From Pantoea rwandensis (GTDB lineage Bacteria; Pseudomonadota; Gammaproteobacteria; Enterobacterales; Enterobacteriaceae), in NCBI RefSeq assembly GCF_000759475.1, contig NZ_CP009454.1:2542001-2606000 (forward strand): a stretch of 64,000 bases of DNA, written 5' to 3'. The translations under genes were made by a program, and so were the position numbers. Shown here one piece after another: positions 34,332-50,857 of the stretch. Position 1 is the stretch's first letter, and the number at the start of each line of letters is the position of its first letter. Below the pieces are notes generated by a model, which saw nothing but the letters and a program-made list of their open reading frames with translations, did not search any database and was not told the DNA's origin.

Positions 34332-35267
34332 TTACTTAATTTCTAATACATCCAGACGAACGCTCATTTCCGGCGCGTCTTCTTCGTCCGGCTGCCAGCC
34401 CGCAGGTTTCACCGGCAGTGTTTCGCGATCAAAGCCAATATCGCCGCCGTCGACCACTTCATCGCCGTGCTGGATGCCTTTAAAGTCGAACAAATTAATG
34501 TCCGCCATGTGCGAAGGCACAATGTTCTGCATCGCACTGAACATGGTTTCGATACGGCCAGGATAGCGTTTATCCCAGTCACGCAGCATATCCGCAACGA
34601 CCTGACGCTGGAGGTTCGGTTGTGAACCGCACAGATTGCAGGGAATGATCGGATACTGGCGCGCTTCAGCAAAGCGGATGATGTCTTTTTCGCGGCAATA
34701 GGCCAGCGGACGGATGACAATATGTTTGCCATCATCACTCATCAGTTTTGGTGGCATGCCTTTCATTTTGCCGCCGTAGAACATGTTCAGGAACAGGGTC
34801 TGCAGGATATCGTCGCGATGATGGCCTAGCGCAATCTTGGTACAACCCAGTTCAGTGGCGGTGCGGTAAAGAATCCCGCGACGCAGTCGTGAACAGAGCG
34901 AACAGGTGGTCTTGCCTTCCGGAATCTTCTCTTTAACGATCGAGTAAGTGTCTTCATCGACGATTTTATACTCGACACCCTGTTCTTCCAGATACGCGGG
35001 CAGAATATGCGCCGGGAATCCTGGCTGTTTCTGGTCGAGGTTAACCGCCACCAGTGAGAAGTTAACCGGCGCGCTCTTCTGCAAATTGCGCAAAATTTCC
35101 AGCATGGTATAGCTGTCTTTACCGCCAGACAGGCAGACCATGATGCGATCGCCTTCTTCAATCATGTTGAAATCAGCAATGGCCTCACCCACGTTGCGAC
35201 GCAGACGCTTCTGAAGCTTGTTGAGATTGTATTGTTCTTTCTTTGTTACTTCTTGATTTTCTTGCAT
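34332..35267 (-). CDS. ttcA: tRNA 2-thiocytidine-32 synthetase TtcA
   Basis: 311 residues from the conserved start MQENQ. The PP-loop SGGKDS is at 47-52, and C122/C125 in CSLC plus a later CGSQPN cysteine hold the 4Fe-4S cluster. Thiolates C32 of several tRNAs. The frame runs 14 codons further upstream, but that segment is outside the family. Its 5' end is the integration site of the Rac prophage in E. coli and carries the att-like core here. Confidence 0.95.
35218..35243. other. Rac-type attachment core in the ttcA 5' end
   Basis: 26 bases inside ttcA, ending TTGTATTGTTCTTTCTT, match the Rac prophage att core (as I recall it) with two differences near the left end. An integrase remnant lies 73 bases beyond. 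No second copy is seen in the window, so the far junction is lost or outside. Confidence 0.6.
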
Positions 35268-35315
35268 TATTAACTGTCTCAGAAAACAAAAGGGGCATGC
35301 AATGGGCAAGTCATT

Positions 35316-35606
35316 TCAGATCGCCAGTTTGCTGTTGAGCATATCTACCTGCTCGCCATTCATCTCTTCAATCCATGTCGCTTAGATTTTACTCACCATC
35401 TGCGCGTTCTCATGTCCCATCTGATTCGCTATGAAAGACGGGTTTGCGCCTGCCGTCAAAAGCCAGCAGGCAAAAGTATGTCGCGTATGGTACGGATTAC
35501 GGCGACGAATTCCAGTTCCAATCTGATTATTAATATGAATTTTCAATGTCCGGCTCTGGAGCTGTTTTGGCGTTGAGCTTAAAAAGCAATCTTTCTGCCT
35601 CTGCTA
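35316..35606 (-). pseudogene. Tyrosine-recombinase remnant (Rac-type integrase C-terminus)
   Basis: About 95 codons read as the C-terminal half of a phage integrase: the box II signature HTRHTFACWLLTAGANP (catalytic H and R), then FIANQMGHENAQMVSK. The codon at the catalytic tyrosine position (35382-35384) is TAA, and the frame resumes with ATWIEEMNGEQVDML to a normal end. The N-terminal half is missing. The element therefore can no longer excise with its own integrase. Confidence 0.85.
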
Positions 35607-36057: not shown

Positions 36058-36195
36058 GCCCTGATTTAAAAGACCACAGTATTCAGAATGTTATCCTACA
36101 TTTTGGTGAGGGTTGTGTTGCACCGACCCGTCGAACTCATTTCATATTCGAACGTGCCGGGCATCACACCAGAACATAACAGTGCTGTTAATTCA

Positions 36196-36552
36196 CTAAG
36201 CACCAGTTGCTATAGGCGTACCCTGATGGAAAACCAGAGACCACTGGCCCTCTTTCGAAATTAGCCAGTAAGAGGAACGTAATGCGGGTCGGCTCCCGTC
36301 AGCATCAGACGTATGGTAAAGAAGTATTACGCAACTTTCACTTATTTCGATTAGCCGGAAATTGCTGCTTATGATTGGACTTGAAGTTTTCTCGCTCTTT
36401 AGCGACATGATCGTGTCTGAGCGATCGACCATCATGCCTGAACGTGTAATCTCCAGGAATTCAGGATGAAGAAGATGCTCGAGCCAATTCCGGTCGTTGC
36501 GTTTTTCACCGTGAAGGCTGCATTCAAGCAACATGAGCTTTTCAAGGAGCAT
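36196..36552 (-). CDS. NTF2-like (DUF4440-type) protein
   Basis: 118 residues. The pattern LECSLHGEKRNDRNWLEHLLHPEFLEITRSG ... SYWLISKEGQWSLVFHQGTP is that of DUF4440/SnoaL-like NTF2 folds; function unknown. AGAGGT eight bases before the ATG. Divergent from the VOC gene. Confidence 0.7.
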   Translation of the reverse strand: MLLEKLMLLECSLHGEKRNDRNWLEHLLHPEFLEITRSGMMVDRSDTIMSLKSEKTSSPIISSNFRLIEISESCVILLYHTSDADGSRPALRSSYWLISKEGQWSLVFHQGTPIATGA

Positions 36553-36686
36553 TGTAATTGACCTCTAATGATTTGGCAGGACGTTTTTTTGAATTGAGAG
36601 GGTGTCAATGAGTTATGGCGCCGCTCACTGGGCAGAAAAGTACTACTCTTTGTAGAAGTTATCATAATTTTAACTGGAGAGTATGT

Positions 36687-37226
36687 ATGGAAAATATACC
36701 GACGCGCGCGCCAAGCAGGGGCATAAACCATGTAGGGCTTACCGTTCCTGACCTGCAAAAGGCAACTGAATTTTTACAGAAGGCGCTGGACGCGAGGTTT
36801 GTCTATGACGGCCTAACAGACCATGATCATCCACGACAGGGGGCAGATACAGAGAAACAATTAGGCCTAAGTTCTGGGTCAATGATTATCAAGCAGCGCT
36901 TGTTACGGATTGGTAATGGTCCAAATCTTGAGCTTTTTGAGATAAAAAGTGAAGAACAGGAGCAACCTGTAAGGCTGCAGGATATTGGCTGGAATCACAT
37001 ATCTCTTTACGTGGACGATATAAATTATGCGGTGGAAAGGGTCAGAGCAGCGGGAGGAAGGCTTCTTTCAGAAATACATGGGAACTCCCGTCATGAAGAT
37101 ACAGAAAATAATGCCAGCGTATACTTTCAGGCTCCGTGGGGCAGCCTGATTGAACTTCAATCAATACCGAATGGTTACTATTATCCCGATGATAGCGAAG
37201 CAGAGACATGGATACCTGCACCGTAG
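36687..37226 (+). CDS. VOC-family (glyoxalase/dioxygenase-like) protein
   Basis: 179 residues with a vicinal-oxygen-chelate fold: GINHVGLTVPDLQKATEF start, WNHISLYVDDI second module and a metal-ligand pattern (H, later E in LELFEI and LIELQS). Likely a lyase or dioxygenase; substrate unknown. The chosen ATG has GGAGAG upstream; the frame is open 24 codons before it without support. Confidence 0.8.
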   Translation: MENIPTRAPSRGINHVGLTVPDLQKATEFLQKALDARFVYDGLTDHDHPRQGADTEKQLGLSSGSMIIKQRLLRIGNGPNLELFEIKSEEQEQPVRLQDIGWNHISLYVDDINYAVERVRAAGGRLLSEIHGNSRHEDTENNASVYFQAPWGSLIELQSIPNGYYYPDDSEAETWIPAP

Positions 37227-37910
37227 TTATCATCTCAGGTAAGGGTGCTTGACTAAACCGGCTCCCACTCCCGCAGTTCGTGTCTGAAAACTAGCAAACA
37301 CTTAACCATAGCTGGCTTATGCACTGCGTCAGCTATGTAGTCAACTCCTCTTACTCTCATCATCAGATGTCTCTTCTGAGTTATTCTCAGATTAAACAGG
37401 CTATTGACTCACTTTCCCAGAACCGGTAATTAAAGTGAAGACTGGATTTCTTTCACAGAACTTTAGTACCAATAAGGGAATATTAAGTACGAGGAGGGGC
37501 AGTTAACCTTGCATTGCTATTACATCGCGTTATTAACTTGCTTTTGCTTATGCTAGTTAAGACTTTATTAGGGTAGTCACCTCATCATTAATGATGCCAG
37601 GCATTTATTTAAGTCGTTTACATATGAGTTGAGAGATTTCGGTCCCTTAACGTCATAAATGATTGTTATAAAATAGAAAGATCTCAATTACCTCCTATCT
37701 GCCATTATTTTAAATAAATGATGACATTGTTACATGCAACAATAATAATTCATATATTTCACCTATTTAAAGAAATTAAGGAAAGTTCCTTCATGAGTTG
37801 CATCTTTAAATAGGCGTAACCTATCGGGTAAATAATATAATTAGGGAGGTTAATGCTATAATAATAGTGTAGTTGATAATGTTATTTAATTTATTAAGCG
37901 AGGTGTAAAC
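37227..37910. other. AT-rich gap without a gene
   Basis: 684 bases, AT-rich in its second half. No coding region, RNA or clear repeat seen. Confidence 0.6.
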
Positions 37911-38219
37911 GTGTTGTACAGCGAAGACATGACCGGTCACGCAATTATTGGTGAAGCAGCAGTCAATCTAGCCGTGCGTGACCAGGATATAACCGTCGAT
38001 GCGCTTATCTCAGAATTGGCCACGATGCTTAAGGCGGACAGTAGTCACTCGAGAGACCAGGCAATCAGGGGAGCCATTAAGTGGTTGCGAGGACACCGTA
38101 GTATGAGCGCTAAATCAACTGGCGAAGATAGCTGGCTTTTACCAGATGCAGGCCATTCAGGCACTACATCGCAGGAAAGTACCATCCGCTTGATGGCAGA
38201 TGACGATGACTTAAGATAA
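37911..38219 (+). CDS. YmgA-like small regulator, copy 1
   Basis: 102 residues from a GTG with GAGGTG upstream. The helical core HAIIGEAAVNLAVRDQDITV...LISELATML...RGAIKWLRG aligns with E. coli YmgA (ITGQAVLQIL...LIKQLLVM) and with four other genes here. A longer acidic tail (RLMADDDDLR) follows. In E. coli this family (YcgZ, YmgA, AriR) acts on the Rcs phosphorelay under BluF/BluR control and affects biofilm. Role here inferred from family and context. Confidence 0.75.
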   Translation: MLYSEDMTGHAIIGEAAVNLAVRDQDITVDALISELATMLKADSSHSRDQAIRGAIKWLRGHRSMSAKSTGEDSWLLPDAGHSGTTSQESTIRLMADDDDLR

Positions 38220-38467
38220 CTACACACTGTGGCGGCAGGTACGGTTATGCCTGTCGCTTTCGTAAGTGTCAGTGCCAGGATTTTACTTACCCATATAGCC
38301 GCTTATTCTGAATCTGTGCTTGCTGGTTCCGCAATACATTTACTGCCATATACTTAACCTTAGCGGCAGTATTTGTGACTGCAAGGCTATAATCTTTAAC
38401 TTTTTATCCAGCCAATGCGTAATTTAAACCAACGCGAATCGCGCGAGCATTCAGGGATCATCACAGC

Positions 38468-38722
38468 ATGAGAGAAACCAATACGGTTGCACACATACAG
38501 GCATGCCTTATGGTTAAAGGTTACCGTTATGCATTACAGAAAGAAGCGCTGGATAACATGATCCGCAGCCTAATTTACATAGGGGTACCGGTGAATAACA
38601 GAACCATTATGCGGCGTATCATGAATCAGCTCTTGGTTGAAACTAACGCCGAAAGGCAGGAAACTCTGCGCGTCCTGCTCCAATTGGTCGTGAGATTTAC
38701 TCCGGACGATCCCGGTGTCTGA
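38468..38722 (+). CDS. AriR/YmgB-like small regulator, copy 1
   Basis: 84 residues. NNRTIMRRIMNQLLVETNAERQETLRVLLQLVVRFTPDD aligns with E. coli AriR ([39 protein letters not shown]), a small dimeric helical protein implicated in biofilm and acid resistance. The N-terminal third is diverged. Weak ribosome site. Converges on the next gene. Confidence 0.75.
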   Translation: MRETNTVAHIQACLMVKGYRYALQKEALDNMIRSLIYIGVPVNNRTIMRRIMNQLLVETNAERQETLRVLLQLVVRFTPDDPGV

Positions 38723-38744
38723 AAGCGGCTGGCGCCGCATAATT

Positions 38745-38945
38745 TCAATTGAGTTTTTTTGCCAGTAACCTGATGGCCCGCTCACAGGAGTCGCGCGTTA
38801 TTTTGTCCGGGGTGGACTCCTTCAGGCGCCAGAGGGCGGCGATGAGTTCATGCACATGTACGGCCCCGTTTGGACGCAGAAGTTGTTTCAGCGCGACCGC
38901 CACAGCCTGATGCATAAGATCATCTATTTCATTTCCGTTTTTCAG
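38745..38945 (-). CDS. YmgA/AriR-related small protein, group C, copy 1
   Basis: About 67 residues. LHVHELIAALWRLKE-type core ending RDSCERAIRLLAKKLN pairs with the gene at 43027 (SCERAIRLLAEQMH). The best-placed start is a CTG with GGAG five bases upstream, whose following residues (KNGNEIDDL) match the start of the paralogues; the next ATG is ten codons in and an upstream ATG at 39005 adds 20 unrelated residues. Function unknown; group membership by helical pattern. Confidence 0.65.
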   Translation of the reverse strand: MKNGNEIDDLMHQAVAVALKQLLRPNGAVHVHELIAALWRLKESTPDKITRDSCERAIRLLAKKLN

Positions 38946-39244
38946 ATGCGCTCCGCTTATTGGGGATATATACAGTATATCGCGATAAGCGGTGCTGATA
39001 AACATGCGGGAAAAAAACAGCCTGATGGCAGTTCAATCAGTAAGGGGATATACGGTCAGGTGGAATATCATGATTGCCGCCAGGTGCTTCGTCTTCATGA
39101 CCTGGCAGCGGTATAGCGACATCATGAATACAATGTTCTGACATGATTATTCCCGTCATCTTTAAATACACGACATTAAGTTTAGCTGCGTTACTTTACC
39201 GAGCGTGAATCATTATCGGGAATGTGACTTAGGATTAAATGAGT

Positions 39245-39481
39245 TCAACGCGCATGAAGTGTGAGCGAAGAGTCCCGCGTATCGGACATACTGTCATCGA
39301 TGCACAAACGACAGATGGAGGCCCATACATTCAGACGTTGCGATGCAATCTGATAGGCGTGCCTATAGGTGAGCGCAGACCCCAGAAATTGACGCTCCGG
39401 ATGATCTTCCAGGCATACGCATCCTCTGCCGTGTAACTGGTAATGCTGTCCTGCATTGAGAAGGTAATAAAACTGGGGCAT
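39245..39481 (-). CDS. Hypothetical small protein
   Basis: 78 residues starting MPQFYYLLNAGQHYQLHG, with AAGGA seven bases before the ATG. The start weakly recalls DUF6894-type proteins (MPRYYF...), too weak to assign. Four cysteines, no membrane segment. Downstream on the same strand of nothing recognisable; lies between two YmgA/AriR-type genes. Confidence 0.5.
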   Translation of the reverse strand: MPQFYYLLNAGQHYQLHGRGCVCLEDHPERQFLGSALTYRHAYQIASQRLNVWASICRLCIDDSMSDTRDSSLTLHAR

Positions 39482-39680
39482 ACGTTTTTCCTTCCGGTTA
39501 AAAGAGATACTGTATGCTGGGATGTCAGGTAGTGAAATTCATTTTTTAAAGCGATATAAGTCGGAACTACCGGAGGGTGTCGTCCTTGACAGGTTCTCCG
39601 GCCGGTGCACGCATTGGCGAGACCGGTGAGGTCATCTTCATCGTCGTCTTCCGGCCAGAGCCGGACTACGTCCTTTGGCG

Positions 39681-39956
39681 TCAGTTCTTCTCGTCGTTCA
39701 GGTCTGCAGAAGTCTGCAGGTACGGCAGATACCGGACGGCCTGATCAGGCTCATGGAAGCTTTTCAGCCAACTTCTGGCTTCCGATATTTCCGTGAGCCG
39801 TTTATCGCTGCCGCCGGCTTGTGCCATGCTTCCAAGCTCAGCAATAAGCGATTGTACGCTTATCTCTTTTTCACCCAGCGCAAGGCTCAATGCCGCTTCG
39901 CCAATAATGACGTGCCCTTTCCCGTCGTGATGATTAGACAAATTAACTACCTCCAT
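39681..39956 (-). CDS. YmgA-like small regulator, copy 2 (frameshifted tail)
   Basis: 91 residues; core GHVIIGEAALSLALGEKEISVQSLIAELGSM...SEARSWLKSF. The frame stops after NDEKN, but one base out of frame the DNA continues as LTPKDVVRLWPEDDDEDD, matching the acidic tail of copy 1 (STIRLMADDDD). A one-base indel near 39680 has probably shortened the protein. The conserved helical core is intact. Confidence 0.7.
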   Translation of the reverse strand: MEVVNLSNHHDGKGHVIIGEAALSLALGEKEISVQSLIAELGSMAQAGGSDKRLTEISEARSWLKSFHEPDQAVRYLPYLQTSADLNDEKN

Positions 39957-40511
39957 TTCACGTTGATGACAGCCTCACGTCACACTGTAGTCGCAGATGG
40001 TGAAAGTGCCCGTAGGTAATTCTGAAAAAAGCTATATTCGTAATAATTTGTATCAATTGCTGAGTTTATTGGACCTTTCATGCAAAAATTTACTTACGTA
40101 ATCCACTAAGAATTAACCGTGGCCTGATGAATTGATTCGCTGATAATTAAATCAGGCTGTTCTGTCCATCAGATTTTGTCTGCATGAATGTGGGGGGTGT
40201 GCTGCCCGTAACCTTGAGTCTTTCGCGGCGCGCAGATTCAGTACTGTTGATTAGGATTTGAGGTAAACGCATGCCGGAGGCGCTCAAATCGAAAGATATT
40301 ACTTTGTGTACATATGCTTTGCTGTTGTACGTACTGGCTTTGCGAAGCGCGGCACCCTCATGAATTAATGCCAGTGTTGAGGACAAACAGGCTTAATGAT
40401 GTCTAGGTCGTTGAAGTCGCGGTGTGGTGAGGGTGACTACCGGTCCGGTTTGAGAATGGTCAGCCAACTGCTATGGTGCCTGTGACAATCTGCGGTAAAA
40501 TGGAGCCAGAA
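39957..40511. other. Region upstream of bluF with an MlrA/BluR-like repeat
   Basis: 555 bases without a supported gene (an open frame at 40147-40386 on the minus strand starts with TTG and resembles nothing). TGTACA (40307-40312) and TGTACG (40326-40331) are separated by 13 bases, the same geometry as the stronger repeat upstream of ycgZ at 44537-44571. It lies about 190 bases before bluF. Confidence 0.45.
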
Positions 40512-41672
40512 ATGCTTACAACAATTATTTACCGAAGCCATCTCGCCGATGAGGTACCCATCAACATCCTGCCGGGTATGGTTGAGAAAGCCAGCCTGCT
40601 CAACGCACGGCATCAGGTCACGGGGATCCTGCTCTTTAACGGCACCCACTTCTTTCAGATTCTTGAGGGCCCGGAGGAGGGCGTGCAGGACATCTATGGT
40701 CGTATCTGCGCCGACCGGCGTCACCACAATGTGGTTGAGCTGATGCGCGACTATTCACCGTCGCGCCGCTTCGGCAACCATGGTATGGAGCTGTTTGACC
40801 TGCGCCGCCATGACAGCGGCAGTGTGCTGCAGGCGGTGCTTGACCGCGGCACGTCTAAATATCGTCTGACATACGACGATCGGGGCCTGCAGTTCTTACG
40901 CACCTTCGTGGAAGCCCGTGAGAAAGAAAACTACTTCGAGGTTTTGCCCGCTGACTACTGGGACTTTGTACCGGATGAGAACGGTCCTTCGTTCCCGGCT
41001 GTGGGCGTCACCTTCCGCCCGGTGGTTGATCCTCTGGGTCGTGAAGTCACAGCCATCGAGGCCATACCCGATGACGCCCCGGATGGACTAACCGGCGAAG
41101 CGCTGTATGCGTATAACCTAAGCGTCGTCACAGAGGCACTGAACAAGGCAGGCAGATCGTGTCCCGACGACATCATGTTATACGTCAGCATATTGCCCAT
41201 GACGCTGGTTAACCTTCCAGATGCCGTCAGCCGGCTCATTAACGCAATTGACCGTGCTGAGCTGGTGCCGCAGCAAATAATACTCGGCGTCAGTGAAACA
41301 GAGGTTATCTCTCAGCTGGAATCATTCACTCAGGCGGTACGCCAACTGAAGCAAGCGGGTATCAGTATCTCTATCGACAACTTTGGTGACGGTTCGGCAG
41401 GACTGTCTCTGCTGGCGCACGTCCAGCCGGACCGCGTGCGCATCGGCGCAGCGATCGTGCGCAATATTCACCGCAGCGGTCCCCGTCAGGCGGTGGTACA
41501 CGCGGTGCTTCGCTGTTGTTCAGCGCTGGAGATAAACGTCATTGCTGCGGGTATCGAACAGCCGGAGGAGTGGATGTGGCTGGAGGCAGCTGGTGTCACT
41601 GATTTCCAGGGTGCCCTGTTCACAGCAGAAGGCGCGGCTGTTGCCTGGCCGGAGACCCGAGAGGCTGTTTGA
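40512..41672 (+). CDS. bluF: Blue-light receptor BluF (BLUF-EAL)
   Basis: 386 residues, colinear with E. coli BluF (YcgF). N-terminal BLUF flavin domain (1-about 95) with the photochemical Tyr7, Asn31 and Gln49; C-terminal EAL domain (about 145-380) that is degenerate (IEAIPDD for EAL, DNFGDG for DDFGTG), so it should not hydrolyse c-di-GMP. E. coli BluF binds and removes the MerR-type repressor BluR under blue light and cold, inducing ycgZ-ymgA-ariR-ymgC. Start set at the ATG aligning with E. coli; the frame is open 13 codons upstream. Surrounded by YcgZ/YmgA/AriR genes, but no bluR is visible. Confidence 0.93.
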   Translation: MLTTIIYRSHLADEVPINILPGMVEKASLLNARHQVTGILLFNGTHFFQILEGPEEGVQDIYGRICADRRHHNVVELMRDYSPSRRFGNHGMELFDLRRHDSGSVLQAVLDRGTSKYRLTYDDRGLQFLRTFVEAREKENYFEVLPADYWDFVPDENGPSFPAVGVTFRPVVDPLGREVTAIEAIPDDAPDGLTGEALYAYNLSVVTEALNKAGRSCPDDIMLYVSILPMTLVNLPDAVSRLINAIDRAELVPQQIILGVSETEVISQLESFTQAVRQLKQAGISISIDNFGDGSAGLSLLAHVQPDRVRIGAAIVRNIHRSGPRQAVVHAVLRCCSALEINVIAAGIEQPEEWMWLEAAGVTDFQGALFTAEGAAVAWPETREAV

Positions 41673-41752
41673 GATACAGGAAAGAAAAGGGCCCTAAGCG
41701 GGCCCAACATGCGGTAAGGTTGGTTGCTGGCTGCTCTGCCATTACAGCCGAT

Positions 41753-41998
41753 TTAAGCCTTTTCATACCGCAGAGTTCTGCCACGATTCGCTTTTTCAAG
41801 CCAGGTAATGAAATGCGTCATCATTGCGGACGCGTGTTGTGTATCGGGCGTGCGGTAAATAAGCAGCCGGCTTTTGGTCTGGTTTGTGCAGTCGATGGCA
41901 TAAATCTCAATACCGGTATCACGTTGCTCGCTTTCAATTGCTGTGAAATGCATGCGAGGCCAGCGGTTTAACCTCAACATAAACTCACTAAGAATCAT
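41753..41998 (-). CDS. Hypothetical protein
   Basis: 81 residues, no family recognised. Balanced composition with two Trp-containing helices (LRLNRWPRMHF, FITWLEKANRG); no signal or membrane segment. AGGCG lies upstream of the ATG. Converges on bluF. Confidence 0.45.
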   Translation of the reverse strand: MILSEFMLRLNRWPRMHFTAIESEQRDTGIEIYAIDCTNQTKSRLLIYRTPDTQHASAMMTHFITWLEKANRGRTLRYEKA

Positions 41999-42238
41999 CT
42001 TTTTCGCCTTTGTTGTTTTAGAGTTGGAAGACTTTTTTCACTGGTCTGCCCAGCGTAGAACTGGTTGCGGACTCTGCAAGCTATCGGCACATTATTATTC
42101 GTAAAAATTTCGTAAAGGCAGCGGGTTAGAACACTTATCAGCACCGCAGATGTCTTTAGCATGAACCTGTGGTGCGTATCCGACAATCCGCTGGCAGGCT
42201 ATCAGTGCAAGAGGGAATAACTGAGAGGGGAGTCAATA

Positions 42239-42544
42239 ATGCTCAGTGAAGATCGTTTGAATCAAATCGCAGAAAATCCGGGCAACTATGAAGCGGAAGC
42301 TGTGGCCATGGCGCTGGAGATCCTACAGCTGCGGCGTATGCTGGGTGCGCCCTGGGCCGTGGTGCAACCGCTGGGCGAGCTTTACGTTGAGGACGGGAAC
42401 GCGGCGATGATCTGGCCGGCAAGCCTGGCGGAGCGCGGCGACGTCTGCCTGTACCGCCTGGATAAGCCTTCACAGGTGGCGGCAGCCTCATCGCCCGCAG
42501 CAAAGCAGCGCGGCCGCAGAAACAAATCACTGGCGCTGGAGTAA
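42239..42544 (+). CDS. Hypothetical protein
   Basis: 101 residues starting MLSEDRLNQIAENPGNYEAEAVAMALEILQLRRMLG, a helical N-terminal part, ending in a basic tail (KQRGRRNKSLALE). AGAGGGGAG is well placed before the ATG. I do not recognise a family. Downstream in the same direction come two YmgA-related genes. Confidence 0.65.
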   Translation: MLSEDRLNQIAENPGNYEAEAVAMALEILQLRRMLGAPWAVVQPLGELYVEDGNAAMIWPASLAERGDVCLYRLDKPSQVAAASSPAAKQRGRRNKSLALE

Positions 42545-42686
42545 GCTACCTTCAGCACAACATCCCTAACGTGACGCGTATTAACACTGCCGTGTAAATG
42601 TTTTCTATAGGTATCCTTCCCGTTAATGTTCGGGCCAGCTGCGCTGTGGTAAGCTCTGCGCCCAAAACCTGCTGCCGGATAACCCC

Positions 42687-42947
42687 ATGAAAAATGATTT
42701 TGAAGATAAAATGGCCGACATTATGCTTGGCGAGGCCGTCACGGCGCTGCTGGATGAGGACGTGGCCATTAGCTGGGCGGCACTGACGGATCGCTTACGG
42801 TCGGCCATTGAAACTGAAACGGACGAAGATCGGATTCGCGCAGGTCTGCGCGCTATTGAAGAAGTAAGGCGGGAAATGCGTATTCGCAACGGTGAAAAGA
42901 CCGGAGGGAAAAGGGTCACAGGACTAACAGAGCAGAAGCTTCACTGA
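42687..42947 (+). CDS. YmgA-like small regulator, copy 3
   Basis: 86 residues: MADIMLGEAVTALLDEDVAISWAAL..., then a charged helix and a basic tail. Closest in the window to copy 4 at 43853 (both start MKN-, then LGEAV-ALL and an I-S pair). The YmgA-type helical core is kept; the tail is private. Function inferred from family. Confidence 0.7.
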   Translation: MKNDFEDKMADIMLGEAVTALLDEDVAISWAALTDRLRSAIETETDEDRIRAGLRAIEEVRREMRIRNGEKTGGKRVTGLTEQKLH

Positions 42948-43026
42948 CTCCCTAAGGGGCTGCGGTATCTGACACTGCCCCTTTCTGTTATACTGTACAC
43001 TCATCCACCTTACGGACGGAGGTCAT

Positions 43027-43224
43027 ATGAATGATGACACCACCGCCGAAGATATCTACGCCGTTATTGGAACGGTCGTGGCTCGCCTTCTTAAGCCGGA
43101 CCAGCACCTCTCTCTTCACGAGATTACCAGCGCCCTGCACAGCATGAGTGAATCAGTCGACACTGCCGGAATGCGCGTAAGCTGCGAACGCGCCATCAGG
43201 CTTCTGGCTGAGCAGATGCACTGA
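43027..43224 (+). CDS. YmgA/AriR-related small protein, group C, copy 2
   Basis: 65 residues; LSLHEITSALHSMSESVDTAG then SCERAIRLLAEQMH, near-identical in its last helix to the gene at 38745. ACGGAGG seven bases before the ATG. With the convergent AriR-like gene at 43441 it repeats the AriR / group C convergent pairing seen at 38468-38945 in reverse order. Confidence 0.7.
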   Translation: MNDDTTAEDIYAVIGTVVARLLKPDQHLSLHEITSALHSMSESVDTAGMRVSCERAIRLLAEQMH

Positions 43225-43318
43225 CTTTCGGATTCCTCCTGTTCTGACATACACCCTGGCGCACTGACGGTGACGTGCCACACTAAGAAGTGTTGAACTT
43301 TTAAGCCGGGAGAAACCT

Positions 43319-43438
43319 GTGAAATTCTGGATTGCTGTAAGTCTTACCGCCGCCATCAGCTGCTCCGTGTGGGCTTCGCGGGGCGGATTTGATTCCCCAG
43401 CAGCAATGGCCGCCGCGCACGTCACGCAGCAGAATTAG
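43319..43438 (+). CDS. Small secreted peptide (39 residues)
   Basis: Starts at GTG with CGGGAGA upstream. KFWIAVSLTAAISCSVWA is a compact signal peptide with an AxA-like SVWA end, leaving about 20 mature residues (SRGGFDSPAAMAAAHVTQQN). Alternatively it stays as a membrane peptide. Its stop is two bases from the end of the convergent ariR-like gene. No family recognised. Confidence 0.5.
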   Translation: MKFWIAVSLTAAISCSVWASRGGFDSPAAMAAAHVTQQN

Positions 43439-43440
43439 TC

Positions 43441-43707
43441 TCAAAAACCTTCGTCGTCAGGCGTTTTGCCCACCACAATTTCCAGCGCGCTGCGTAGTAT
43501 GTCAAGCTCAACCATATCTGTCGTGCTCTCCAGCTCGGCGATCAGGTAAAGTATGATCGCTTTGCTGGTTACCTTTTTACCATGAATGACGATGTCGCGG
43601 ATAACAGCGTCTAGCACGGCAGTTTCTGCGGCCAGCTTGTCGCCGCCGCTGCGAAAGTGCTGAATGATGCTTGCTTCTGTAGAGGTGTTTTGTTCATTAA
43701 GCTGCAT
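43441..43707 (-). CDS. ariR: AriR/YmgB-like small regulator, copy 2
   Basis: 88 residues, the better match to E. coli AriR: ASIIQHFRSGGDKLAAETAVLDAV, then KKVTSKAIILYLIAELESTTD and LDILRSALEIVVGKTPDDEGF, colinear with AriR over nearly its whole length. AriR is a small helical dimer induced by blue light through BluF/BluR and by acid, and lowers biofilm adhesion. Monocistronic here. Confidence 0.85.
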   Translation of the reverse strand: MQLNEQNTSTEASIIQHFRSGGDKLAAETAVLDAVIRDIVIHGKKVTSKAIILYLIAELESTTDMVELDILRSALEIVVGKTPDDEGF

Positions 43708-43756
43708 AGTGTTATCCGTCAGGCCCTACGGGCTAAAGTGACCAGGCTCATAGCCT

Positions 43757-43789
43757 GAAAAAAACGGCTACCCCCTAGGTAGCCGCATC
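43757..43789 (-). terminator. Terminator of the minus-strand gene at 43853
   Basis: CGGCTACC/GGTAGCCG hairpin followed on the minus strand by seven T. Confidence 0.8.
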
Positions 43790-43852
43790 CTGCGGGCGTC
43801 CTGCCGCTCTCCGGTAAATACGGAGATTCGTCCTGAGGTTAATCAGCGACTA

Positions 43853-44125
43853 CTATTTCTTTGTGCTACTACTCGGTCCATTAAGGGCACCCAATGCCAG
43901 CACTGCTGCATCAAGGCCTTCCCGGGACTGTATAAATTCCGTCTGCACCTCACCCAGCGCCAGGGCTATAGCTTCTCGCCTGTCCTTAGTAGTCTCACTG
44001 CTACCCATAGCCCTGAGCTGTCGAGCCACGCTATCTGCGCTAATTCCGTCATCGATGCTCAGCAGGGCTACCACGGCCTCACCCAGGACGACGTCGGCGA
44101 GGCGTTTTAAATCGTTATTTTTCAT
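43853..44125 (-). CDS. YmgA-like small regulator, copy 4
   Basis: 90 residues starting MKNNDLKRLADVVLGEAVVALLSIDDGIS, closely similar to copy 3 in its first 30 residues. Has its own terminator downstream. Function inferred from family. Confidence 0.7.
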   Translation of the reverse strand: MKNNDLKRLADVVLGEAVVALLSIDDGISADSVARQLRAMGSSETTKDRREAIALALGEVQTEFIQSREGLDAAVLALGALNGPSSSTKK

Positions 44126-44228
44126 ACCCGCATCTTCAGGTTAATGCCCTCCAGGCAGGGTGGCAGGACAACTATTCCGGGCGGTCCTGAATGCACGCTG
44201 CGGGCATCACCTGCTTACAGCGAAAAAC

Positions 44229-44471
44229 TCAGCGTTCAAACAGCATGCCGATTAGTGTTTGATAATGACGCTCTTCTTCCTGATTCGCCGCCACTTCAAG
44301 GCGGCGCAGCAGTTTGGTACAGATAGCCTTACGGTTAAGGTTCTTGCCTGCGCGCAGGATTTCAACGACAATCTGTCCCAGCGTTTCCTGCTGGGTCGGC
44401 GCCGATGCTTTACTGAAGTAATACGCAATATCGCTGGCGGAGTCCGGGAATTTCGTAACGTTCTGACGCAT
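44229..44471 (-). CDS. ycgZ: YcgZ-like connector protein, copy 1
   Basis: 80 residues, colinear with E. coli YcgZ: YYFSKASAPTQQETLGQIV, then GKNLNRKAICTKLLRRLE and LIGMLFE. In E. coli ycgZ is the first gene of the BluR-repressed operon; YcgZ counteracts or tunes Rcs activation and is also a cold- and light-induced protein. Here it is separate from the other members, but keeps an MlrA/BluR-like inverted repeat 66-100 bases upstream. Confidence 0.88.
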   Translation of the reverse strand: MRQNVTKFPDSASDIAYYFSKASAPTQQETLGQIVVEILRAGKNLNRKAICTKLLRRLEVAANQEEERHYQTLIGMLFER

Positions 44472-44536
44472 GGTGAACCTCTCAATGGTTAAAATGTAGT
44501 CGGCTCTGTCTGACGATAAAGTTATACAACCAAATC

Positions 44537-44571
44537 AAACTTGTACAGCAATTGTGTTGTTGTACAACTTT
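44537..44571. promoter_or_regulatory. MlrA/BluR-type operator upstream of ycgZ
   Basis: Inverted repeat AAACTTGTACA - 13 bases - TGTACAACTTT (10 of 11 arm positions pair). It strongly resembles the MlrA site AAAATTGTACA-N12-TGTACAATTTT as I recall it; MlrA and BluR are related MerR-type regulators. A further palindromic TTGTACAA occurs near 44662-44669. Confidence 0.65.
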
Positions 44572-44740
44572 TCTTTTTGTGCAAAAAATGCTTACATCTA
44601 TTATTCAGTAAGTTAGGTTGATACCTGTGCGCAAATAGTGAGTGAGTAATTCAATGGAATGGTTGTACAACAGGCTGGCTATTTAGTTAAGAGGTCAGGG
44701 AAGATGCCTACCCGGTTTGTCCCGGACAGGCTTAAACTAT

Positions 44741-44995
44741 TCAGTGCACTGAGCTGCGGCCCGCTCCGGTGACCCATCTCAGCTCGTCCCGGTTACCCGG
44801 TAATGATTTAAACCCGCGAAGCCAGCGCTTTGCCCCTCTTATCTGCACGCAGCGCAAAGGATCTTTTTCAGCTGCGGCCATATCAGCCAGTTCCCGGATA
44901 AGTGAATTAACGGTAATATCCGTATTATTCATCGCCAGGTGAACCGCAGCCTCGCCAATAATCAGCTGGTTTCCGTTATGAAAATCTTCAGACAT
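44741..44995 (-). CDS. YmgA-like small regulator, copy 5
   Basis: 84 residues; core LIIGEAAVHLAMNNTDITVNSLIRELADMAAAE...RGAKRWLRGF, nearly the same as copy 1 (37911). Lacks the long acidic tail. Function inferred from family. Confidence 0.75.
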   Translation of the reverse strand: MSEDFHNGNQLIIGEAAVHLAMNNTDITVNSLIRELADMAAAEKDPLRCVQIRGAKRWLRGFKSLPGNRDELRWVTGAGRSSVH

Positions 44996-45452
44996 GTTCA
45001 GCTCACTCTCAGTCTCGTTACGGTGTTTCAGTGTAGTGGTTTAATGAAATCAAGTCCGCTTCCATATCATTATTTTCAGCGCATTATCCTCTCAGCCTGA
45101 AATAAAAGTTTCCGTCAGAAGATAAAAACAACCTGAATTCAGATGCCTGGCAGCTTATAGGGGTTAAGCATCGGAAAATACTGAATAATCCTTAAGTGTA
45201 AAATGAAATCGATTTCAGCTTAGGAATCGGGCTGAGAAGAGATTTAATCTCAAACGAGGATTTAACACATTACGAAAAGTTCTCCCCGGTCAGTCTGTGA
45301 GGTAACACTGTGAAAGTGCGAATCGGGCGGGTAAATCACGGAGTAAAACGTGAAGATTATTGTGCAGCAGAATCGAAAATATTTAGGAAATGTAAATTCC
45401 CTAATTGAGCACTCCGGGATGAAATATTACCTTCGGCGCGCGTCCGTAAAGC

Positions 45453-45617
45453 TTAATTAAATTCAGGTTTTGGACCCCGGGCGGCCACGCGTGCGCGGTC
45501 GGGACAGTTTTTAAAGTTGCCGTCACTGGCGGCGGCGCCTTTGCTGCTCGCTTCAGAGGCTAGTGACGGGTCGGCCGCAAAGTTTCCGGCACCACCGCGT
45601 CTTGATGTTGTCGTGAT
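45453..45617 (-). pseudogene. KGG-repeat (YciG/GsiB-like) stress gene with lost start codon
   Basis: 54 codons reading RRGGAGNFAADPSLASEASS, then KGAAASDGNFKNCPDRARVAARG: the RGGSGNFAEDREKASEAGRKGG / GGNFKNDPQRAS pattern of YciG and GsiB-type stress proteins. The second motif has lost its KGG glycines. The initiator position, six bases after GAGG, is ATC; no other start exists in frame. A decayed gene, or a sequence error at one base. Confidence 0.65.
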
Positions 45618-46675
45618 GTGTTCCTCAGTTAAAAGATGTCCTGTATTTCAGGCAGTTAAATTATGACCCGTCCGCACAGGACTACCCGCGTTCGGCACAA
45701 TTTTTCAGAGAAATGACGGCGGACGCGTGTTACAGGACGGCTGAATCTGAAACGCGGGCCTAACAGCACTTGCGGCTTGCCATTTCATTGGGATGCGTCA
45801 GGATTTATGCGCGGAACGGCACGTGACAACCCTCCGGTGGAGAGCTGTTCTGCGGCCGTGCCGTTCCGCAACTGCGTCAGTTCTGCGCAGCGTTAGGGGC
45901 TGTGAGCTAATAACACCCGTCTCCGCAGATGACTTTAAGGCTCGACGCCCCCAGTAGAAGGCGGGTCAGTGGACTCAAAATGCCAGCCAGCTGCGCATCG
46001 GGTGCAGGCAGCCTGATTCACCTGTGCCGTCCCACTCGTACACGCGGTGCTTCGGGTCGCGCAGCGCACAGGCTACAATTCCCACCCACATCCCTTTTGC
46101 CGCGTTGGTCTGCGCGCTGTCGATAATGATGAACGATCAGTGATGCAGCAAATAGCAGAAAATCGTCGCGTCAGGCCGTACACCGCATTCTAATGCAGCG
46201 GCTGGCGTGTGCGTCATACCTCACCTGTATGCTGGCTTGCTACGGCGAGGTGTAGTCTTCAGTGTCATCCAGTCACCGCATAGACGGTTTCCAGCAAGGG
46301 CACCTGTGCGAACAGCCTGAACTGCCGTTCTGCTGCGTACTGCCATAGGGTGTAGCCGAACGGCATTAATAGGGCAGCGTAAAGGCTTTGCATCGCCGGC
46401 AAGAAATACCCGGGTATTGGCCCGGATAGTGTCTTTCGGATTGAGTAACTGACTGAAGATGTTATCGGGCAGGGTAATGGGCATGCTGTCGTCCGCCGCT
46501 ATTATGCTGATCAACGAGCTTCCCTTATAACCGAAGCGTTAATTTAACTTTATGAATTTAATGAAGTAATGCCAAATTTTGCTTAAAGAATTTAGCGCCG
46601 CCGGATTACTGCTGTACACGCGCCATTACATCGGTTATTTTGCGCCCGAACTTATTCACTCCACACGGGTATTTC
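45618..46675. other. Gene-poor stretch with an inverted repeat and a coding scrap
   Basis: No supported gene in 1,058 bases. A perfect 13-base inverted repeat GCGGAACGGCACG (45811-45823) / CGTGCCGTTCCGC (45857-45869) encloses 33 bases. On the minus strand at 45975-46136 about 50 codons stay open (SFIIIDSAQTNAAKGMWVGI, then VACALRDPKHRVYEWDG) without a start codon; this looks like a protein fragment I cannot identify. Confidence 0.5.
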
Positions 46676-46915
46676 ATGCGACAGGACGGACTACCACCTG
46701 AAAAAGATGCCGGGCTCACCGGTTACTTTAGCCAGGTTACCCACCCCTGCCAGATTGCGCTGCTGGGCCGCATTACCGTTGAAATCCTGCGAAAGGAGCG
46801 CCGGCTGACTCGGACTGCTGTGTGCCTGAAACTGATAGCGCGGCTCGACGCGACCAGCGATGAAACCGAGGCGGCACACCTGATGGATCTGCTCAGGATG
46901 CTTTTTAATCGCTGA
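46676..46915 (+). CDS. YcgZ-like connector protein, copy 2
   Basis: 79 residues from the ATG that aligns with copy 1 (both MRQ-). TGYFSQVTHPCQIALLGRIT, then RRLTRTAVCLKLIARLD and LLRMLFNR follow YcgZ throughout. A TTG twelve codons upstream has no support. Monocistronic, plus strand. Confidence 0.8.
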   Translation: MRQDGLPPEKDAGLTGYFSQVTHPCQIALLGRITVEILRKERRLTRTAVCLKLIARLDATSDETEAAHLMDLLRMLFNR

Positions 46916-47550
46916 GTCTGGGGGCTGCCGACAGGGTGTTTGTATAGATAAGTTCGCCTAAAAAGGAGAGTGGCAACCGGAATGCCGTACAGTCCCGGCG
47001 CATAACAACAGTTCTAAGATGCCGGTTTCAAACACACCAGACTTCATCGCGACCGTTGGAAAGAATGAAATGGGCGTCCGACGTTTCCGACGGGTTAAAG
47101 CACCCTAGCGCCCGACAGGCGGTAGTTAGGCTGAACCCGCCCAGCATCGGCAGCGGCCGCGGGCCGCCCGGCAACTCTTCCCCCCCTCAGATACAGACCC
47201 TGTTCCATCCAGAGCATGGCCACCTTCGTAGCGCAATCCCATTCTTCAATAATAGATAATTTCCCTGATGCCTCCCGGTGACCCCAAAAGCCGCAATCCG
47301 AATCGCTTAAGCCCGTCAAATGCGTTTAGCGGGGCGCCTTAGTCAAACGGATTCACGATATTATGATCATCACACCCATGGCGACTTTGTTTTTGCAGTG
47401 AACGAGATTTCCCTACACGATCTGGTCGGCCAACATCTGCCGAAACCACGAAAATCAGACCTCAGTTTTCCGTTTATCTTAAAATTGACTTTGGCTTTGC
47501 GGTAAGGCGAAAAGCAGTCCATATTTTAAGCCAGCAAAAATGGAGAATGT
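46916..47550. other. Gap without a gene
   Basis: 635 bases. Open frames on both strands have low-complexity Ala/Arg/Gly translations and no family match. Confidence 0.5.
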
Positions 47551-47757
47551 ATGAGCTGGATTGATTATGAAGTTGAAAAGCCCGCAGACGGTCAGGTAGT
47601 TGCAATATGTACGGATGAAGGGGTAGGTAGCGGAAAATATGAGGCATCATTTGAAAATTTTACCCATATTCTTATGCCGGGGGACGCTACATTCAGGCAA
47701 TATCGCGTATCTCACTGGTTTCCTTTACCAGACAGCTATGGAGTGGGTAAAAAATAG
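47551..47757 (+). CDS. DUF551-like small protein
   Basis: 68 residues beginning MSWIDYEVEKPADGQVVAICTD and ending RVSHWFPLPDSYG; the WIxxxxxxPxDGQxV start and the HWxPLP end are the marks of DUF551, common in phages and prophages. Likely prophage-derived. Function unknown. GGAG upstream of the ATG. Confidence 0.7.
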   Translation: MSWIDYEVEKPADGQVVAICTDEGVGSGKYEASFENFTHILMPGDATFRQYRVSHWFPLPDSYGVGKK

Positions 47758-47777
47758 CCACTTTTTAAGTGCAAAAA

Positions 47778-47806
47778 AAATCCCGGGACAATTCCCGGGA
47801 AAAAAT
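47778..47806 (-). terminator. Hairpin terminator reading on the minus strand
   Basis: TCCCGGG/CCCGGGA hairpin with a strong T tract on the minus strand and A on the plus side. No minus-strand gene was found to its right, so it may end an unrecognised transcript. Confidence 0.55.
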
Positions 47807-48396
47807 TCAGCTTCCATTTCACCCAAAGCCGTAACAATTCAAAGCCCGATTAAGCTAGACCAAAATACTGGTTTGTCCAAAAAATATTTGTCCTGATTGG
47901 CATTTATCTTTAAAAGTAAGCGAGAGCACTCCATTCACATATTATTTGTATAATCCTCATATAGTCTGCATAAGAATCACCCTAATCTGCCGGGCCATAA
48001 TCATTGCGGGCATTTAGATTATAAAAAATGGGTGTGGAATGAAGCAGTTATAGGGCTTAACTCTTTCAGGTAAAATTCACGATTCAGCGCTTATCAGAAG
48101 TGCGTCATAGACGCCGAGATTAGTGGGTTATGACTAGAGTTGGGATGTGCACAATAGTTTTTTAACCCTTTCAAAAAGGACTGTATGCTTACAACGAATG
48201 AGATTTTACACACTTATTAGAGTGGGTAGGGCAAGTGTTTAATACAAGTGATTGATTAAAAAAACACCATAAAGAAGAATAGGGGTGGATAGAATCAAAA
48301 AAATATTCTAAACATATAGTTAAACATATCGTGCCGGGTGAATACTCGTCAACGAGTTCATAAATATTACTATTCGCACCTGAGTGATTGATACAA
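47807..48396. other. AT-rich gap without a gene
   Basis: 590 bases, AT-rich, no coding region or structured RNA recognised beyond the terminator at its left edge. Confidence 0.55.
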
Positions 48397-48735
48397 ATGA
48401 ACGTTATTCCTATGTCTTACAGCACCAGTACGGTTTACCGTCGTTTTGAAATGCTTGGCAACATTGAGCATGAACCGGGTCATATGTGGATCCTGTTTGA
48501 TGAGAAGCTCTATTTTTCTGCAGTCGTATGTTCTGTACCTACGATGCAGGGTAACGTCGCCCGGCACAAAATTATAGCAACGATGGATTGTACATGTGAT
48601 CTGACAGGCAGGCTCACACTCGAACGCTATTGGCAGTCTGAAAAACTGCCCAGCGAAGTCGATCTTTCTGAACCAATCATCAGGGCTCTTTCAGAAAAGA
48701 AAGGTCTGTGGATGAAGCCGGTGAGCGTAGCTTGA
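48397..48735 (+). CDS. Hypothetical protein
   Basis: 112 residues; STVYRRFEMLGNIEHEPGHMWILFDEKLYFS then a hydrophilic tail. No family recognised. Start taken at the first ATG; a TTG three codons upstream is also possible. Confidence 0.5.
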   Translation: MNVIPMSYSTSTVYRRFEMLGNIEHEPGHMWILFDEKLYFSAVVCSVPTMQGNVARHKIIATMDCTCDLTGRLTLERYWQSEKLPSEVDLSEPIIRALSEKKGLWMKPVSVA

Positions 48736-49255
48736 ATTGCATAACTGAGGCCTGGTTGCTCCTCGTTTTTACTAATCTACACTATTAGTCCCTAAACCTT
48801 AGCGTAGGTTAATTTTTTTGCATTCTAAAATTCTACATCTTCATCCTGAGATCCAAACAATATGAGAATGATCACCCATTAGCACATGAATCAGGATATA
48901 AATATGCTCATAATGGAAAATCAAATTTTCGAACAGGTTAGTGTCACGAATTGCCTTCTAACTCAACTCTGGTAGTCTCTTACTCAACAAATAGCTAACG
49001 TCCGGCGTATCAGACCTGCTTAAAGCTCACTATGACGAACCACCGCCAGATGCAAGTTAAAGTACTATCAGAATTTGATGGTACTTTAATGTATTGAATG
49101 CAGACCGGATCGTGAAAAAGATAAAAAACGGACACCATAGTCTGCATATCTCTTTTGCATATCGTGGGGTATGAGCACAATACTGACGCAGATTGCTGAA
49201 AACCATCTATTATTGAACAGTTAGAATCAACTTTTTTCAAAAAGAGGGATAAGTA
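48736..49255. other. Gap without a gene
   Basis: 520 bases. No coding region recognised; the right end must hold the promoter of the lipoprotein pair. Confidence 0.5.
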
Positions 49256-49489
49256 ATGAATATAAAAGGCATAGGTTTCCTGTTAATTGCTTCAGCTTTC
49301 GCAGTTTCAGTTACGGGCTGTTCTTCAAATCAGGCTATTAAGACTACTGACGGTCGTACCATCGTGACAGATGGTAAGCCTCAAATCGACAGTGATACGG
49401 GCTTAGTATCTTACAAAGATGCCCAGTCAGGACGAACTGAACAAATCAACCGCGATAAAATCACCAACATGAGTGAATTAGATAATTGA
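49256..49489 (+). CDS. YgdI/YgdR-family lipoprotein, copy 1
   Basis: 77 residues: signal plus lipobox (AVSVTGCSS, Cys22), then the YgdI/YgdR (DUF903) fold TTDGRTIVTDGKPQID...GLVSYKD. A small outer- or inner-membrane lipoprotein of unknown role. AGAGGGATAAGTA upstream. Thirteen bases before its tandem copy. Confidence 0.9.
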   Translation: MNIKGIGFLLIASAFAVSVTGCSSNQAIKTTDGRTIVTDGKPQIDSDTGLVSYKDAQSGRTEQINRDKITNMSELDN

Positions 49490-49502
49490 TAAGGAACAGT
49501 CT

Positions 49503-49730
49503 ATGAAAAAAATCACTTTCTCAATGTTAGCCGCGCTTATCGCGCTGTCGGCTTTAACTGGCTGTACCCGGACAAGTTATGCCATTCATACTAATGATGG
49601 TAGAACAATTGTCAGCGATGGTAAGCCTAAAGAGACTGAAGCAGGATTGCTAGGTTACACTGATGCTAACGGCGTTAAGCAACAGATTAATAAGCAGGAA
49701 GTCAAAGAAGTATCAGAAATACCACATTAA
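49503..49730 (+). CDS. YgdI/YgdR-family lipoprotein, copy 2
   Basis: 75 residues with signal and lipobox (SALTGCTR) and the same DUF903 core (TNDGRTIVSDGKPKETEAGL). Tandem duplicate of the preceding gene, diverged mainly in the signal and the middle; same operon, with a shared terminator after it. Confidence 0.9.
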   Translation: MKKITFSMLAALIALSALTGCTRTSYAIHTNDGRTIVSDGKPKETEAGLLGYTDANGVKQQINKQEVKEVSEIPH

Positions 49731-49732
49731 TC

Positions 49733-49762
49733 AAAAACACCGCCAGAAGTGGCGGTGTTTTT
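49733..49762 (+). terminator. Terminator of the lipoprotein pair
   Basis: ACACCGCC/GGCGGTGT hairpin followed by T5; A-rich on the left. Confidence 0.85.
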
Positions 49763-50225
49763 ACATTCCAGGTTACAACGTTAAAGCACTTCTTAGGTTA
49801 TAAAAAAATTAAGCCTTTCCGACAAAGGATTTAGTTCAAAGCTGAATAAGGTATTAATGTTGCTAAAGATGCTTTAAAGCAATGCATAGAGGAGATTTGT
49901 AGGAGTTAGCTCAACTGGAACTTGCTAAAGTTACTTAAAAAAGATTTGAAGTGAAACTAGCATTGTAATGTTAAGTCCAGATAATAATTTTTGTGGGCGA
50001 ATACTAAATTTAATCAATTAAGCATTCATGTTTCGATTATTCAGTGGTTAAATAAGAGGTGGCTTTTGTTTGATTGGTGTAGGATGAATTTAATTAATCA
50101 ATCGAAAATCTGTGAGGTATGTCAATTATTTAAAATTTAATTAAATATGACCTGATTTCAGTAAGGCCACTCTGGGCATATGAACTATAGTATATGAACT
50201 ATTAATTAAGTTTCTTGGAGGTGAG
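49763..50225. other. AT-rich gap without a gene
   Basis: 463 bases, strongly AT-rich, no gene recognised; probably holds the promoter for the next gene. Confidence 0.5.
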
Positions 50226-50450
50226 ATGAATATTCATTATCTTGATGAAAGCGATAAAAATAGTCAAAAGGTAGTGTTGCCCTCTACAGAAATTATGGTT
50301 GGTGAACTGGTGCATGAATTGCTACGTGAGCGCCGTTGTGTCAACAGACGTGCCATGATATCGCGACTATTGTTAAGGCTTGAAAATGTCACATGTCCAA
50401 TGGAAGCAATATATTATGCAGAAATTCTTAATATGTTTGAGCAAAAATAG
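50226..50450 (+). CDS. YcgZ-like connector protein, copy 3
   Basis: 74 residues with a very good ribosome site (TTGGAGGTGAG). TEIMVGELVHELLRERRCVNRR, AMISRLLLRLENVT and ILNMFEQ align with the YcgZ core; the N-terminal part is private. Furthest right of the family in the window. DNA more AT-rich than the other members. Confidence 0.7.
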   Translation: MNIHYLDESDKNSQKVVLPSTEIMVGELVHELLRERRCVNRRAMISRLLLRLENVTCPMEAIYYAEILNMFEQK

Positions 50451-50596
50451 CTTGTTGTTATTCTCGATAGTTTTTAGTTAGTATGATTTCTGGAGACGTG
50501 TTTACGATAATCGGTACTACCTTACTGGTATTTAACTACTAAGGGGAGTGTATCACTATCTTTGAATACTTGATGAAATACATTGATCAATAACTT

Positions 50597-50857
50597 TTAA
50601 CTGGACTTACGTTTTCCCTGACAGGTACTTTTAAACGCATTTTCAGCCAGACTAAGGTCATAATCATCCAGTATTTCTCTCCCGCGCGAAGTAAGTTTGT
50701 ATCGCTTTTTTTCACGCATCCATTCATCGCCCAAAAGAAACTCAACAAGCCCCATATCTGACAACTCTTTTCTCACAACGGGTTTGACAGAAGAGGGGAC
50801 TGATCCTCTCTCTTTGATTATTGATAACAATCTAAAGTGTTTCTGAGCAAGTTTCAT
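50597..50857 (-). CDS. Winged-helix-like small protein
   Basis: 86 residues. KHFRLLSIIKERGSVPSSVKP, RKELSDMGLVEFLLGDEW and KKRYKLTSRGREILDDYD have the helix-helix-wing rhythm of small DNA-binding proteins; the last part (YKLTSRGREIL) is typical of winged-helix C-termini. Start set at the ATG eight bases after AAGGA. Target unknown. Confidence 0.65.
   Translation of the reverse strand: MKLAQKHFRLLSIIKERGSVPSSVKPVVRKELSDMGLVEFLLGDEWMREKKRYKLTSRGREILDDYDLSLAENAFKSTCQGKRKSS

Follow-up and report, generated by a model that had tools for sequence, protein, structure and literature searches.

In Escherichia coli the BLUF-EAL protein BluF antagonises the repressor BluR, releasing ycgZ-ymgABC and activating Rcs, and the BluR footprint contains GTACA elements (PMC3509220). 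The small connector proteins YcgZ, YmgA and YmgB (AriR) interact in all pair combinations in two-hybrid assays, YmgB contacts RcsC, and a complex binding the RcsC kinase domain has been reported (PMC6900184); YmgB also binds SpoT, and its activation of Rcs is independent of RcsF (PMC10704370 and PMC11451591, respectively). Here we describe a larger relative of this system in Pantoea rwandensis, within a 64-kb window (the whole stretch analysed, 64,000 nucleotides, positions 2,542,001 to 2,606,000 of contig NZ_CP009454.1) in which bluF is accompanied by 11 connector genes at about 37854-47281. We regard it as fairly probable that this locus is the chromosomal copy of a transferable Pantoea module, an enlarged version of the BluR-BluF-Ymg pathway known from E. 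coli. Titles and abstract openings of the open-licence literature yielded no report on a Pantoea connector module, which is not proof of absence in print, and the word Pantoea does not occur in the main text of PMC3509220.

An initial annotation had described one BLUF-EAL protein and twelve small proteins as a multiplied form of the ycgZ-ymgA-ariR family with BluF, and both the inventory and the relationship hold. All twelve small open reading frames (ORFs) are in the ORF list of the window, that at 46676 starting at an internal ATG (the earliest possible start is 46640), and the product of 40473-41672 matches PF04940 with 82.8 bits and PF00563 with 126.7 bits (curated cut-offs 25 and 31.3). 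The genes are not scattered singly, as had been suggested, but have a fixed order that includes a canonical operon: 43441-44471 is ycgZ-ymgA-ariR with the internal order of E. coli MG1655, and beside this trio stand bluF and eight more paralogues, all in a single gene order. The module spans roughly 9 kb, and the twelfth connector, at 50226, lies outside it. Its components are listed here, where A, B, C and Z denote YmgA-like, AriR-like, group-C and YcgZ-like connectors, and groups, supports and ratios of non-synonymous to synonymous substitution rates (dN/dS) refer to comparison across module copies.

37911..38219, + strand: A1, YmgA-like connector, 'IIGEAA' subfamily, 102 amino acids (aa); one group in 10 modules, support 100; dN/dS 0.28
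38468..38722, + strand: B1, AriR/YmgB-like connector, 84 aa; PF10798 35.1 bits; one group, support 90; dN/dS 0.33
38745..39005, - strand: C1, group-C connector, 86 aa; one group, support 96; dN/dS 0.31
39245..39481, - strand: D78, conserved module ORF, 78 aa, without reliable family; 10/14 modules (ORF search); dN/dS 0.19
39681..39956, - strand: A2, YmgA-like connector, 'IIGEAA' subfamily, 91 aa; 14/14 modules; one group, support 87; dN/dS 0.19
40473..41672, + strand: bluF, BLUF domain and degenerate EAL domain, 399 aa; dN/dS 0.10
41753..41998, - strand: D81, conserved module ORF (81-100 aa), without reliable family; 12/14 modules; dN/dS 0.22
42239..42544, + strand: D101, conserved module ORF, 101 aa, without family; 11/14 modules; dN/dS 0.28
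42687..42947, + strand: A3, YmgA-like connector, YmgA-proper subfamily, 86 aa; one group, support 94; dN/dS 0.19
43027..43224, + strand: C2, group-C connector, 65 aa; predicted fold like YmgB 2oxl; dN/dS 0.28
43441..43707, - strand: B2, ariR orthologue, gene 3 of the canonical operon; 40.5% to E. coli AriR; dN/dS 0.12
43853..44125, - strand: A4, ymgA orthologue by position, gene 2 of the canonical operon, order as in E. coli; dN/dS 0.25
44229..44471, - strand: ycgZ of the canonical operon; 58% to E. coli YcgZ; dN/dS 0.06
44522..44568, - strand: BluR-type operator of the ycgZ promoter; three GTACA/GTATA half-sites, 19 bp spacing
44741..44995, - strand: A5, YmgA-like connector, 'IIGEAA' subfamily, 84 aa
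46676..46915, + strand: YcgZ-like connector; one group, support 100; dN/dS 0.23

As in E. coli, bluF lies near a ycgZ-ymgA-ariR operon of the same internal order, its EAL domain is degenerate, a GTACA-type operator precedes ycgZ, and the genome encodes orthologues of BluR (66%) and RcsC (65%). The middle gene of the trio, A4, matches E. coli YmgA at 32% over 53 aa (E 2.4e-6). The Pantoea system differs in that its module holds eight additional connectors, with one more lying 3 kb outside it, where E. coli has four in all; no ymgC was found, bluR is unlinked, and the module is plasmid-borne and multi-copy. The orientation differs too, as bluF and ycgZ converge with 2.8 kb from the bluF end to the ycgZ start, whereas the E. 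coli pair diverges from a 0.3 kb region.

The module BluF matches E. coli BluF at 49.5%. Seven EAL positions were compared, chosen as binding cyclic di-GMP or metal (N, E, D, D, K, D and E in BlrP1), and these, like the flavin-site residues, we take partly by assumption to be the functional ones. Six of the seven are changed in the module BluF (S, G, D, N, R, G and A), as against three in E. coli BluF and none in a second BluF of the same genome, and alignment with BlrP1 and E. coli BluF places the BLUF tyrosine, asparagine and glutamine among the retained residues. Judged from its residues, the module BluF would thus be of the anti-repressor type, with the flavin site kept and the EAL catalytic residues lost; an EAL domain without phosphodiesterase residues is as expected for an anti-repressor. 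The Klebsiella pair of BLUF-EAL proteins, BlrP1 active and the second degenerate (PMC3509220), is similar in that the Pantoea genome has one intact-EAL BluF and one that is not, but the intact Pantoea BluF (2283639-2284850 of the genome) is in a flagellar gene cluster, recognised by eye, and the degenerate one in the connector module. A one-mismatch BluR-type operator also occurs among the flagellar genes (2288881-2288908; about 14381-14408 of locus L099); the second bluF is 4 kb away, but the ORFs on either side of this site converge.

A BluR-type operator is present at the ycgZ-ymgA-ariR promoter in 13/13 modules, and in P. rwandensis the identical operator precedes bluR, whose promoter is 0.85 Mb from the module, with no other zero-mismatch site in the genome. 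The BluR orthologue and the operator-like sites at ycgZ and bluR indicate that parts of the BluR-BluF-Ymg pathway are present. At the promoters of the module connectors outside the trio no BluR-type operator was found. Because the sole operator in the module is that of ycgZ-ymgA-ariR, light control is supported for three genes and not for the twelve that had been proposed to be switched by light. Four related modules, but not this window, carry a regulator of the MlrA type (MerR family) that matches MlrA C-terminal domain and MerR helix-turn-helix models and has 21% identity to BluR; searching the P. rwandensis genome with it returned BluR as the sole match (22%). A candidate remnant of this regulator at 40056-40436 consists of just a 25-residue match (E 0.05-0.07) and is not claimed. 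In Erwinia S63 (L065 3163-4589) a second connector set, A-C-B-Z, adjoins the full module and has a pair of BluR-type operators of its own in front of its Z gene.

The family assignments of the connectors are of two kinds. Four exceed the curated PF10798 cut-off of 22.3 bits (38468, 35.1; 43441, 78.4; 44229, 30.0; 46676, 23.8) and belong to that family, whereas 50226 falls below it (15.8 bits). The YcgZ equivalog NF040640 (cut-off 80) is exceeded by 44229 alone (136.9), with 46676 (69.7), 50226 (40.7) and 43441 (23.5) below. None of the five YmgA-like and two group-C proteins (0/7) matches a Pfam or NCBIfam model of the PF10798/YcgZ kind at E<=1. These seven are tied to the YmgB/AriR family by profile-profile comparison and predicted fold: the A-B, C-B, Z-B and A-C links score 80.9%, 72.4%, 97.6% and 93.6%, AriR-like predicted models were obtained for A5 and C2, and the C2 model (mean predicted local distance difference test score 90.7) has YmgB 2oxl as its best PDB match (template modelling scores 0.77/0.81, E 0.51). 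The profile test is therefore borderline, with 7/12 proteins outside the curated profiles and finer comparisons bringing those seven in. From these comparisons, all twelve appear to share the three-helix YmgB/AriR fold of 2OXL, with the same core and register; the YmgA-like and group-C proteins appear to have this fold without being PF10798 members and to form subfamilies of their own, while the Pfam model recognises the B and Z proteins. Four group-C relatives (P0099, P0109, P0110 and P0152) are called 'Fumarase D' or 'Fumarate hydratase' in UniRef; no fumarase-type Pfam model matched C1 or C2, and the names look like automatic misnamings.

Genome contigs were scanned with the module BluF, giving 52 loci whose ORFs were scored with profiles of the four connector groups. 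A common order around bluF recurs, complete in some loci and partial in others: A+ B+ C- A- bluF+ A+ C+ B- A- Z- A- Z+, and 14 loci including the window were counted as module copies, the remainder being left out of later counts. Candidatus Pantoea formicae has three copies, Pantoea sp. A4 and P. rodasii two each, and Erwinia sp. S63, Enterobacter cancerogenus M004 and Pantoea RIT-PI-b one each; three more are on plasmids. Each of the 11 connector positions is occupied in 10 to 14 of the 14. Blast matches start at window 37854-37897 in six loci (L046, L048, L049, L050, L052 and L065) and stop at 47146-47281 in four (L047, L048, L052 and L065), and the flanking ORFs of these loci differ in appearance, by eye only; L046 and L049 stop at contig ends. 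In Candidatus P. formicae L045 the match runs across 36134-50622 (82%). P. dispersa, P. eucrina, P. piersonii and others have simpler forms, and a plain trio adjoins bluF in Enterobacter, Klebsiella, Cedecea and Leclercia. In Siccibacter colletis (L064 6961-12382) an A-Z-A-B-C set flanks bluF on both sides, an expansion outside Pantoea too.

Among plasmids, 42000-47300 matches 114 of 72,556 records, 91 of them from Pantoea and 110 predicted non-mobilizable, with three matches over at least 80% of the length. The module is on P. dispersa pLsch (181 kb) and Pantoea At-9b pPAT9B02 (394 kb), both typed conjugative, and a Pantoea BRR-3P plasmid typed non-mobilizable carries its right part and, of the remainder, A2 only. 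On pPAT9B02 the module is followed by a further ycgZ and amyA, and the window is alike (50226, and an ORF at 55698 matching plasmid amyA genes). A P. soli plasmid (L108 6203-10176) has bluF with an MlrA-type regulator, a tyrosine recombinase gene and a single YmgA-like connector, possibly a simpler form of the module. Two records labelled Acinetobacter venetianus (CP060162.1 and CP060163.1) score equal to P. eucrina and Pantoea PSNIH1 plasmids, possibly through mislabelling or contamination.

The window is neither special nor unique, since the expansion is genus-wide and the module is also on plasmids. YmgA-like genes are present in 53/61 genomes of the genus at up to 19 copies, the source genome having seven, and close relatives of the module BluF (at least 84%) number 13 in 9/61 genomes, with three in one genome. 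When each genus of the family is represented by one genome, PF10798 matches (E<=0.01) occur in 42/119, the source genome being highest with nine. The source genome has eight more connectors at other places, among them an A/B/C set with a TraG/TraD-type coupling-protein gene about 4 kb away; weak profile matches at 1835611 (E 0.02) and 2767317 (E 0.38) were not counted.

All 11 connector positions tested are under purifying selection across modules (dN/dS with frame controls), and in trees every position except A4 forms its own group, although many supports are below 95; a deep split (support 99) separates A1/A2/A5 from A3/A4. Because each position but A4 groups by itself across modules, the paralogues had probably diverged by the time the module spread. 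The paralogous specialisation first proposed gains in this respect, the positions being old and separately maintained (10/11 each form a group of their own, 11/11 are under purifying selection), and hetero-oligomers and different kinase targets are plausible by analogy.

Further features lie within and around the module.

35382..35546, - strand: tyrosine integrase C-terminal fragment adjoining ttcA; PF00589 33.3 bits, profile 121-163 of 172
45462..45611, - strand: piece resembling a 60-aa 'general stress protein' of pLsch; tblastn, 69% over 58 aa
45881..46502, - strand: decayed copy of a 215-aa module gene; tblastn matches in two overlapping frames, longest ORF 97 aa
46965..47180, - strand: partial copy of a 106-aa module gene; tblastn, 83% over 72 aa
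50226..50450, + strand: YcgZ-like connector outside the module; also in L045 (Candidatus Pantoea formicae) at 18801

The 215-aa gene gives a single continuous tblastn match in 8/14 modules. A Rac-type attachment duplication at ttcA (34332-35309) was rejected: what we take to be the Rac prophage attachment core has one match, with two mismatches, in the ttcA start region and none downstream within the window. No ends of an integrated element could be located, and no direct repeat was a candidate among the 20 listed of 31 families. Elsewhere in the window, two small lipoprotein-like genes stand in tandem at 49256-49730, sharing a 59-nt repeat (73%), the first matching DUF903 (60.3 bits); a GAF protein at 51361-53136, whose EAL match is strong and whose GGDEF match falls below the cut-off, adjoins a methyl-accepting chemotaxis-like ORF at 53470; and an apparently truncated UmuC-like ORF of 176 aa (62457-62987) follows a UmuD-like ORF at 61982, by eye, a longer UmuC-like ORF (421 aa) being present in L101 at 3515-4780.

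From the computed features (anatomy, predicted fold, selection, common operator, degenerate EAL, presence of BluR and RcsC, and plasmid and multi-copy distribution) we infer a light response, binding partners and an output. In the dark, the unlinked BluR would occupy the triple GTACA operator before ycgZ-ymgA-ariR; under blue light, the phosphodiesterase-dead BluF would bind BluR and free the promoter. YcgZ, YmgA and AriR would then be made and form heteromeric three-helix assemblies that bind RcsC at its kinase part, with a resulting shift in surface polysaccharide and biofilm output. The remaining paralogues, without an operator, would be expressed by other means, and are most likely old, position-specific subunits of the same fold, serving as alternative heteromer partners or as connectors to other kinases. 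A bolder version, possible but rather doubtful, is a photosensory cassette that can be transferred and works by a combinatorial subunit code: light would set the amount of the YcgZ-YmgA-AriR heteromer, at least eight otherwise regulated paralogues of the same fold would compete for or replace subunits and turn the assembly away from RcsC towards other kinases or SpoT, and plasmid gain would rewire the host two-component network.

The same predicted fold among paralogues, the relaxed dN/dS of A1, B1, C1, C2 and A5 (0.28-0.33) and the variation in YmgA-like copy number from 0 to 19 could instead reflect redundant dosage, in which connectors are interchangeable, more copies give more Rcs output and there is no specialisation. 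We think this unlikely, as the positions remain separate groups across species, plasmids and within-genome copies rather than being homogenised or recently duplicated (with the low supports mentioned), the split of A1/A2/A5 from A3/A4 is deep, and order and strand are conserved. The module might also be accessory DNA carried by plasmids and integrative elements, its connectors adjusting the envelope signalling of a new host to the element's benefit, for example in conjugation, with light as one input. Its presence on conjugative pLsch and pPAT9B02, the A/B/C set near the coupling-protein gene, the antirestriction and DNA methylase genes flanking L048 and the integrase fragment beside ttcA point this way, but the ORF lists revealed by eye no transfer gene within the conserved module, large Pantoea plasmids hold many general niche genes, and nearly all matching plasmids (110/114) are predicted non-mobilizable, so that we give this account, too, little credence. 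Very unlikely, finally, is that the chromosomal copy is a decaying relict, an old integrated element on its way out in which only the trio matters: the 215-aa and 106-aa genes are decayed, the MlrA-type regulator is missing and an integrase fragment is present, yet the window has full ORFs at 11/11 connector positions and selection across modules is purifying.

In the reading that we favour, of a chromosomal copy of a transferable module, the four-gene E. coli pathway becomes a larger, conserved and transferable system, and two protein subfamilies that are mostly 'hypothetical' in databases appear to have the connector fold. Natural sets of 11 co-inherited paralogues at fixed positions make connector-kinase specialisation testable, and the unit by which light controls bacterial signalling may in this case be larger and transferable.

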